Shown here one piece after another: positions 40,701 to 44,610 of a stretch of 64,000 bases of DNA. The position numbers and the translations under genes were made by a program. Position 1 is the first letter of the stretch; every line of letters starts with the position of its first letter. Origin of the DNA: Phoenix dactylifera. Taxonomy: Eukaryota > Streptophyta > Magnoliopsida > Arecales > Arecaceae. Below the pieces are notes generated by a model. The model was not told the DNA's origin. It searched no databases and saw nothing but the letters and a program-made list of their open reading frames with translations. The DNA lies in assembly GCF_009389715.1 (NCBI RefSeq), contig NC_052397.1, forward strand, positions 13,583,355-13,647,354, in the 5' to 3' direction.

Positions 40701-41576
40701 ATTTCCACAAAAATTAAAGGTGAAACTTTCAGACCAAATCTTCAATTATAACATTAGAAAAAAAAATTAAAAAAAACTTTTCTATGACCACCAGGAAATT
40801 GTCAATCTTACAGGAATCGGAGCGCTTTCAACTTGGCCAAAGACTTGGGGATTTCTCCCTGCAATCGGTTTCCGTACATATCCATGCTGATGAGGCTCTT
40901 CAAATTGCCCAATTCTTCAGGGATCTTCCCCTCGAAGTTGTTCCTGTAAAGCTCCCTGTATTCACCGAGCCAAATCCAACACCAACCATCAACAAAAATC
41001 CCATCTTCGAACCAAAAACATGCATCCAAGGAAGCAAAGATTAAGACGTAGAAGTGCTCACAGATACTGAAGGTGCTGGAGGCGGCCGAGCTCGGGACCC
41101 AGAGGACCAGAGATGTTGGAATTGCCCAAATCCCTGAAAACCAAAAGAAAAAAGGCGTCGTTTTTAGGTAAACAACGAAGGAATTACTTGGAGGCAAGAG
41201 GAAGGGGGGAAGTAAGGGGCGGACAGGCGGATGACGCGGTTGCGATCGTCGCAGGTGACATGGAACCAAGTGCAAGGGTTGACGAGGGTGGGGTCCCAGC
41301 TCTGGAGCACGTTGGTCGGGTCGGAGAGCCTCGCCCTCAGCGCATGCAGCGCCTCCCCTGTTTGTCATTAACTAATCAGTACTAGGAGAAGATCAAAGAT
41401 CAAACAGAGTCAAGTTTCTCGCTTCCTGGTCGGAAGAAAGGCAGGGTGGTAGAATCCATTAAATTAGAAAGAGAAAGAGATGAGAGGAGAAGTGGAGTAC
41501 CTTCGGAGTTGGTGGAGATGGCAGGATACACAGCAAGGAGAAGAAGGAAGGAGACGAAGCGGAGCCGGGACGCCAT
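37782..41576 (-). CDS. LRR1: Secreted leucine-rich repeat protein (LRR1-like)
   Basis: A small extracellular LRR protein resembling the ectodomain of SERK-type receptor kinases, without a membrane anchor or kinase. Relatives are linked to defence and cell-surface receptor complexes; the function here is inferred. Exons on the minus strand: 41576-41501, 41357-41225, 41133-41062, 40955-40812, 40689-40618, 40528-40457, 37851-37782. They total 639 nt and give 212 aa. The start gives a signal peptide ([20 protein letters not shown]). An LRRNT domain follows ([13 protein letters not shown] ... [16 protein letters not shown]). About five LRRs come next, with exons of 72 or 144 nt that each encode one or two repeats, such as [20 protein letters not shown] and [20 protein letters not shown]. 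The tail [12 protein letters not shown] ... [14 protein letters not shown] is family-typical. A (TC)n run lies immediately before the ATG in the leader. Intron 6 is 2.6 kb; the last exon is the family's usual short one. No defect is seen. Confidence 0.95.
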
Positions 41577-42695: not shown

Positions 42696-43044
42696 ATAAA
42701 AAAAAGTTTAAATAAATAGATAAATAAAATAAAATAAAAAGAAAAAAAAAAGAAACAAGAAAAAGAAGTACGCGGAGTCATTATCCATTATATTTATAAC
42801 TAGACATATACCGGCAAAAGAGCATCTTTCAGCGGAAATGTTACTACTAAGCTTGGTTTATATACCACCTTTCACTCCAGTCCAATAAAAGCAGATGGAG
42901 CTCCGCATCTACCCCTGCTAATTATTTCGCAAGAAATCTATAAACAGTAATGAGACGAGGACTTTTCACGTCCTTTGGTTCGATGTGCGAAGTTTAGAGT
43001 TAATGTTCATTCAGGTTGGAGGCAATTAGATTCACATGCGAGAG

Positions 43045-44391
43045 TAGAGTTGGGCACTGGGCCGGGCCGCCCACGGCCCGGCACGAAGCGGGCCGTGCCA
43101 GGCACGGCCCGCTAGCTACAGTGCCGGGCCGTGCCTGGCACGGCCCATTTGAGAGGGCCGTGCTGGGTCACAGGGTACTGGCCCGCGGGCCAAGCCCGGC
43201 ACGGCCCGCTCTAGGCCCGCGGGCCAAGCACGGCACGGCCCAACTATCATACCGGAATAACGCCTCAAACCCTCACCCATCTCCTCTTCCCCCAGTCTAT
43301 CATACCGGAATCCATGAGGAACCCTCCGTCCTCCCGAATCTACGGTCAGGGTTATTAGTGTTTCCGAACCCGATGGAGAAGCAGGCCTCCGGCCGGCACC
43401 CGCCAGCGGGGGCGCCGCCGCCGCTGCAGCTCTCCCCACAGGACTGGGAGACCCTCATCGACGACTTCCAGTCCGGCGTCCATGGCCGCTTCGCACGGTG
43501 GCTCTCCCTCCCCCTCCTCGATCTCGCCCTCCACGCCCTCCTCCGCCGCGACTTCCCCTCCGCCCTCAAGCCCCACCTCCTCATCTTCCTCGAGGACTCG
43601 TTCCCCCCCCTCCCCCTCCCGTCCCCCGCCGCGGCCCTCCCCCACTCCTTGACGCCCTCCGCGCCCTCCTCCAATCCCCATCCCCCGACGCCGCCGCCGT
43701 CCTCGACCAGGCCATCCTCTCCGCCACCGCCGTCGCCGTCGCCGCCCTCCCCTCTCCCCTCCCCCCCTCCGCCGCCTCCCACCTCGAGTCCCTCACCGAG
43801 GTCCTCCTCGCCGTCGCCAACCGCCCCAACCACGGCCCCGACCGCCTCTCCCGCGCCCTCGCCTGCGAGTCCCTCCGCGAGCTCGAGCGTGCCAATCCCC
43901 TCCTCCTCTCCGACGTCGCCGGACACCTCTGGGTGCTCGCCCAGGCCGAGCGCACCCACGCCGCCCAGAGCTATCTCCTCCTCCTCGCTGCCGTCGTCCG
44001 GAACATCGCCCTTCACGGTCTCCTCTCCTCCCCCTCTTCCGTCCTTTCCACCTCCACCCCCCTCGTCCCCTTCTCCGCCCCCCAATCCCTCTTCTCCCCT
44101 CCCGACCCCAATCGCGAGCCTGTGTGGTTTGGAGCCGTTGCGGGCCGTGCCTGGCACGGCCCGTTTGCGCCCGTTACGGGCCGTGCCTGGCACGGCCCAT
44201 GGCGTGCCGTGCCCGGCCCGGCCCGCCAATAGACGGGCCTGGGGCCGGGCCGGGCTGGCGTTCCGTGCTGGACGGGCCGTGCCTGGCACGGCCCGCTTCA
44301 TAAGCGGGCCGGGCCAGGCACGGCCCGTTTAATCCTCGAGCCCGGTGGGCCTGGGCCGGGCCGGCCCGGCACGGCCCGTTGCCCAACTCTA
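43045..44391. mobile_element. Non-autonomous hAT element carrying an AP-5 beta gene fragment
   Basis: The 1347-bp element has 12-bp perfect terminal inverted repeats TAGAGTTGGGCA, which fit the hAT end consensus. It is flanked by an 8-bp target duplication TGCGAGAG (43037-43044 and 44392-44399). Both subterminal zones are packed with the palindrome GGGCCGTGCCTGGCACGGCC and half-sites of it (about 43057-43245 and 44138-44380). The interior (about 43245-44130) is not transposase but host-like coding DNA. Such gene capture is well known for Pack-MULEs; here the end structure says hAT. Confidence 0.88.
43373..44130 (+). pseudogene. AP5B1: Captured 5' fragment of AP-5 complex subunit beta gene
   Basis: The frame starts MEKQASGRHPPAGAPPPLQL, then SPQDWETLIDDFQSGVHGRF, then LLDLALHALLRRDFPSALKP, resembling the N-terminus of plant AP-5 beta (an adaptor subunit in late-endosome trafficking). 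After FLEDSFPPLPLPSPAAALP the match moves to another frame: LLDALRALLQSPSPDAAAVL, then VANRPNHGPDRLSRALACES and LWVLAQAERTHAAQSYLLLL. A missing C in a C-run near 43640 explains this. The fragment stops near 44130, where it joins the GGGCCGTGCC repeats, so well over half of the normal protein is absent. Sequence before the ATG (43250-43372) may be the parent gene's leader. The open frame running across the whole element is a product of GC bias and is unlikely to be a working protein. Confidence 0.75.
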
Positions 44392-44610
44392 TGCGAGAGG
44401 ACCAGAATGGAGGGCCCACCTTACCTGACCCACGCTCTCCTGCAGCATGCTGTTGCTTTGGTACCGACCGGCTTGTCCTACGACCAAGAGGAACAGCTCT
44501 CATTTTACGGGTAACAGCAAAAGCGCAGAAAAGAGCCACAACTGGGAAAAGAAATGGCTAAATTCCAAGCAGATTAGGAGGCTGAGTTCCACTGCCAGCA
44601 GTAAGTATGA

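Follow-up and report, generated by a model that had tools for sequence, protein, structure and literature searches.

Introduction

How cut-and-paste transposons acquire pieces of genes is debated. Gene capture is described as rare in hAT elements in the part of Du et al. 2011 cited here (PMC3260210), and Gisby and Catoni 2022 named the Pack-hATs of maize (PMC8903248, in the part used), which makes the remark of a first-pass annotation of the present DNA, that capture is less documented for hAT elements than for others, a fair one. For animal Pack-TIRs, the cited sections of PMC8277862 offer repair-based models of capture. Here we analyze a stretch of 64,000 nucleotides (the window) that harbors a Pack-type hAT element carrying part of an AP5B1 gene, very probably made when a broken hAT copy was repaired by template switching.

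Results

Structure of the window element

Positions 43045-44391 of the window form a 1,347-bp non-autonomous hAT element with the following features.

43037..43044, unstranded, left 8-bp target-site duplication TGCGAGAG
43045..43056, + strand, left 12-bp terminal inverted repeat TAGAGTTGGGCA
43045..43241, unstranded, left arm, corresponding to the transposase 3' side of the parent hAT family, with palindromic GGGCCGTGCC/GGCACGGCCC repeats
43242..43258, + strand, left junction, AA plus the 15-bp tract CTATCATACCGGAAT, leading via AAT into the captured segment
43256..44120, + strand, captured AP5B1 fragment with 99.2% donor identity, comprising 118 bp 5' of the ATG and ~250 codons from the first long frame of the donor
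43373..44332, + strand, 319-aa frame from the captured ATG into the right arm, off the donor frame after ~codon 89
44122..44126, unstranded, right junction filler GTGTG, beside a GCCC microhomology of donor and family
44127..44391, unstranded, right arm of 265 bp, corresponding to the transposase-upstream end of full-length members (94-97% identity)
44380..44391, - strand, right 12-bp terminal inverted repeat
44392..44399, unstranded, right 8-bp target-site duplication TGCGAGAG

The element starts with TAGAGTTGGGCA and ends with TGCCCAACTCTA, and is flanked on either side by TGCGAGAG; the 12-bp hAT-type ends and the 8-bp duplication noted in the first-pass annotation both proved perfect on checking. 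Its description of dense palindromic subterminal repeats was likewise accurate, with GGGCCGTGCC or its complement occurring 14 times in the two arms, with no occurrence in the core or among the remaining 62,653 bases of the window. Folding of the 212-nt left end yields z = -9.14 relative to dinucleotide shuffles, none out of 200 shuffles equalling it. Elsewhere in the window, a frame at 40808-41368 on the - strand matches the leucine-rich repeat family LRR_1 (2.6e-05) and may belong to an LRR protein gene; its upstream side faces the hAT element at a distance of ~1.7 kb.

The arms derive from a transposase-bearing hAT family

The first-pass annotation had made its reading depend on termini that recur elsewhere in the genome. 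The 25-base right end is found at 556 genomic places within 2 mismatches, compared with 0 for a reversed control, and the 265-bp right arm has many genomic matches at 93-97% among the 40 scored of 1,465 candidates. Among 20 longer regions that we fetched, 15 allowed an element to be delimited, the criteria being both ends and a duplication with no more than 2 mismatches; the remaining 5 were left out of the counts that follow. The 15 delimited full-length members measure 3,183-3,394 bp (~3.35 kb), and their 8-bp duplications are perfect in 14 cases and carry 2 mismatches, the delimiting cut-off, in one. The window arms align to both ends of every one of them, with 79-93% identity over ~197 bp on the left, the low values there arising because repeat units are gained and lost between members, and 94-97% over 265 bp on the right. 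The GC-rich subterminal repeats vary among full-length members (L036-L054), seemingly by whole units, so that arm length varies too. As the closest member differs by arm (L041 at 93% for the left arm, L036 at 97% for the right arm), no individual parent is singled out.

Transposase sequence is present in all 15 delimited members; its frame is open over 674 or 675 residues in six of them and shorter or broken in nine. In one member tested, the 674-aa frame matches the Pfam families Dimer_Tnp_hAT (8e-26) and hAT-like_RNase-H (3e-9), and the hAT assignment of the first-pass annotation is hence upheld by the full-length family, which shares both arms, and by its transposase. In the orientation of the window, the parent transposase reads from right to left, with its ATG ~730 bp inside the right end.

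The right-end search also returned clustered matches. Three perfect right ends in one orientation lie at G000:C14:3499516, 3503224, and 3506931, spaced 3,708 and 3,707 bp apart, and could represent a tandem array whose unit would contain a full-length element. Pairs in the same orientation at C1:32565904/32565960 (56 bp apart) and C15:3103286/3103614 (328 bp apart) suggest nested or duplicated ends.

The core is a fragment of an AP5B1 gene

The interior of the element matches a single donor locus, C17:13336883-13337749, which is the sole further core match among the 40 scored of 1,465 candidates and lies on a different contig from the copies. Core identity to the donor over 867 bp amounts to 99.2% in the window copy (C6), 99.1% in the copy on C8, 98.0% on C29, and 99.4% on C289, and to 97.4% over 611 bp in the copy on C11. 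At the donor, a 498-aa frame opening at the captured ATG matches Pfam AP5B1_middle (1.7e-16) and a 481-aa frame farther downstream matches AP5B1_C (3.5e-12); comparison of the donor frame with solved structures gave no match at E up to 0.001.

These results agree with the first-pass annotation, which had proposed that ~880 bp of AP5B1-like coding sequence replaces the transposase: the donor match spans 867 bp, and a protein search for transposase in the five copies described below returned nothing at E up to 1. The start codon that it placed in the fragment is indeed there, at 43373, preceded by 118 bp of donor sequence. It had also named an AP5B1 alignment running on past both ends as an observation that would speak against capture. 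The match of element and donor stops at both internal junctions, and the donor gene extends far beyond the piece captured. The idea that a transposon merely interrupts, or lies beside, an AP5B1 gene was rejected on the same ground, together with the position of the donor on another contig. Irrespective of the route, we regard capture of AP5B1 sequence by a hAT element as practically certain.

The chimeric element has moved as a unit

A whole-element search of the 773-Mb genome, which is probably that of a plant, in which 40 of 1,465 candidates were scored so that copy numbers are lower bounds, identified at least five copies of the chimera including the one in the window. Beyond the window these are three full-length copies at 98, 97, and 93% and a shorter one on C11, which measures 1,105 bp and lacks the first part of the captured segment together with its ATG. 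The flank of this C11 copy resembles a LINE-type reverse transcriptase by eye, and the copy may sit inside a retroelement. All five are bordered by perfect 8-bp target duplications, each different from the others (TGCGAGAG, ACTGTAAG, CTAGTGCT, GAGGAGAC, and TTGAGGAG), and the chimera has therefore moved as a unit. Chance matches of the ends were ruled out by the five copies, their five duplications, and their common arms.

Every copy that covers the site departs from the donor by a common set of four substitutions and a deletion of one base, two of which are covered by the C11 copy; all remaining differences are private to single copies. By manual count, private substitutions in the captured part number 2 in C6, 3 in C8, 6 in C29, 0 in C289, and 5 in C11, and small private deletions occur there in C6, C29, and C11. 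Because no private substitution is common to two of the five copies, the pattern suggests a spread from one source close to C289. Half of the private substitutions (8 of 16) are of the C-to-T type at CpG, with CpG bases making up 184 of 868, which is compatible with methylated copies while not being proof of methylation. Donor and C289 differ at 4 of 867 positions. With a substitution rate of ~1.3e-8 per site per year, this divergence would translate, roughly, into a few hundred thousand years.

Junction sequences and the route of capture

At the left junction, family sequence runs to GGCACGGCCC and is followed by AA, the 15-mer CTATCATACCGGAAT, and donor sequence from AATAACGCC, AAT being common to both. 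The donor locus has a single 15-mer, starting 41 bp into the captured stretch, so that the element contains it twice, 53 bp apart, the other occurrence being at 43297-43311. When 1,000 random 17-mers in which A and C were favoured were compared with 1.4 kb of the donor on both strands, the longest match was 12. The parent family was considered as a source of the left filler and rejected, AACTATCAT and CCCAACTAT being present in 0 of 15 members. At the right junction, donor GAGCCC is followed by GTGTG and then by family sequence GTTTGGAGCC, which is preceded by GGCCC in one member, while ten members have GGCCCGTCTGGAGCC. The string GTGTGG also appears in 13 of the 15 members, at a distance of 445-523 bp from the right end, but a string of this length is not informative. 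The four long copies have identical left junctions, and the right junction does not differ among the five copies save for a single C-to-T change that gives the window copy GCCT in place of GCCC.

Templated insertions and short overlaps are traces of template-switching repair or of polymerase-theta joining. Taking together the arms, core, donor, junctions, five insertions, and relatives with open transposase frames found in this genome, we infer the following pathway and order of events. A transposase-bearing hAT element of ~3.35 kb would have been broken, most likely in post-excision repair or during replication of its hairpin-rich arms. Repair synthesis would then have left the element some 200 bases into one arm and copied AP5B1, first as a 15-nt tract and, after a 53-bp slip, over ~867 bp, before re-entering the element 265 bp from its other end by way of GCCC and the brief filler. 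With both arms preserved, the chimera would have remained movable by the transposase of intact relatives, presumably those described above, which would have spread it in cut-and-paste fashion to five or more sites. The junction sequences would fit template switching and polymerase-theta joining alike, and a break at excision as much as one at replication, and do not separate these variants. No capture intermediate was found and, donor and copies being on different contigs, the proximity of donor and element cannot be judged.

Two other routes were weighed against this one; the three are mutually exclusive, and their odds therefore sum to at most one. One is joint mobilization, put forward for Pack-CACTA and other Pack-TYPE elements, which in the present case would mean that two neighbouring hAT insertions flanking an AP5B1 segment moved as one and that internal sequence was lost later. 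Gisby and Catoni 2022, in the part of their paper cited here (PMC8903248), propose it for Pack-TYPE elements of all DNA superfamilies. The 15-bp templated tract and the filler at the right junction have the look of repair synthesis instead. Across 9.9 kb spanning the donor, family-end matches with at most 2 mismatches are limited to a single 12-mer, ~630 bp upstream of the capture point, which likewise speaks against flanking insertions although not decisively, as excision could have erased them. We consider joint mobilization very unlikely.

Insertion of an AP5B1 retrocopy or mRNA-derived fragment into a hAT element would be consistent with a captured stretch that contains no intron by which an mRNA origin could be excluded; as this stretch lies within one exon-like frame, introns cannot separate a DNA from an RNA template. 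Nevertheless, neither poly(A) at the junctions nor a duplication around the core is seen; the fragment takes in 118 bp upstream of the ATG, and it starts and stops inside donor sequence with template-switch marks. Insertion of a retrocopy or mRNA-derived fragment is accordingly an extremely remote prospect, and repair synthesis with template switching to AP5B1 is the route that we retain.

Reading frames and possible effect on AP5B1

Of the four ATG-bearing copies, three stay in the donor frame as far as the captured part goes and read on to a stop in the right arm, giving 274, 286, and 326 aa. In the window copy, loss of a single C relative to the donor shifts the frame at ~codon 89 of the ~250 captured, and an AP5B1-like protein is therefore unlikely to be made from it.

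The retained right arm consists of the outermost 265 bp of the transposase-upstream side and is oriented antisense to the AP5B1 piece. Antisense transcription from it, of the kind suggested in the first-pass annotation, is possible, judging from this arrangement of an upstream arm pointing antisense to the captured piece. It is nonetheless unlikely that the element acts on its parent gene, be it by antisense RNA driven from the right arm or by copy-derived small RNAs that would lower AP5B1, an effect that would be compatible with any capture route. The leftward reading of the parent transposase from the right arm, and hence antisense to the captured piece, argues for the former, against which stands the distance of ~730 bp to the parent transposase ATG, since transcription may start beyond the remaining 265 bp. 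An action on the parent gene would also be in keeping with the C-to-T changes at CpG mentioned above, as expected of methylated copies. The broader proposal that the hAT family turns the captured 5' AP5B1 piece into a mobile source of antisense or small RNA, repressing AP5B1 in trans from five loci, appears very improbable.

Discussion

The 8-bp duplications, the short inverted repeats, and the hAT dimerization domain of a full-length relative place the present element in the hAT superfamily. Its ends are shared with a transposase family, its host fragment has a donor elsewhere, and it has moved as a unit, as is characteristic of Pack-TYPE elements, here a Pack-hAT. The Pack-hAT class is already known, and the present element adds unusually complete evidence to it. 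The donor, relatives with open transposase frames, and five young copies all come from a single genome, and the two junctions have hardly changed among the four long copies. The templated insertion points to repair synthesis, and the locus offers a good worked example for the repair model.

Similarities extend to several described elements, each compared through the part of its source that is cited. The terminal bases can be set beside those of rice Dart (PMC2956540), whose first 12 printed end bases match ours at 10 of 12 positions by hand, in a comparison of the ends alone; Dart shares the 8-bp duplications and differs in having a 19-bp terminal repeat where the present element has 12 bp. 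Maize Pack-hATs (PMC8903248) are non-autonomous hAT elements with host coding DNA, like the element described here. The same paper favours tandem insertion and re-mobilization, however, whereas the present junctions look like template switching. Among the animal Pack-TIRs (PMC8277862), the frog element Pack-hAT-N8_XT carries 291 bp of a host 5' UTR in a hAT element and is multicopy with three distinct duplications, much as ours, and microhomology at many Pack-TIR breakpoints resembles the junctions found here; Pack-TIRs differ in being animal elements that are nearly all single copy. Maize Ds2 and Ds-l4 (PMC3260210) have hAT ends and 8-bp duplications as in the present element. Ds2 further retains arms of ~200 bp from the autonomous element around an internal filler, as observed here, and the filler of Ds2-22 was copied from a gene on another chromosome, similar to the AP5B1 capture. 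The Ds elements belong to another hAT family, and Ds-l4 shares little with Ac beyond the ends. Unlike Ds2 and Ds-l4, as far as the cited part of that paper (PMC3260210) describes them, the element reported here comes with its donor, its open-frame relatives, and five moved copies in one genome.
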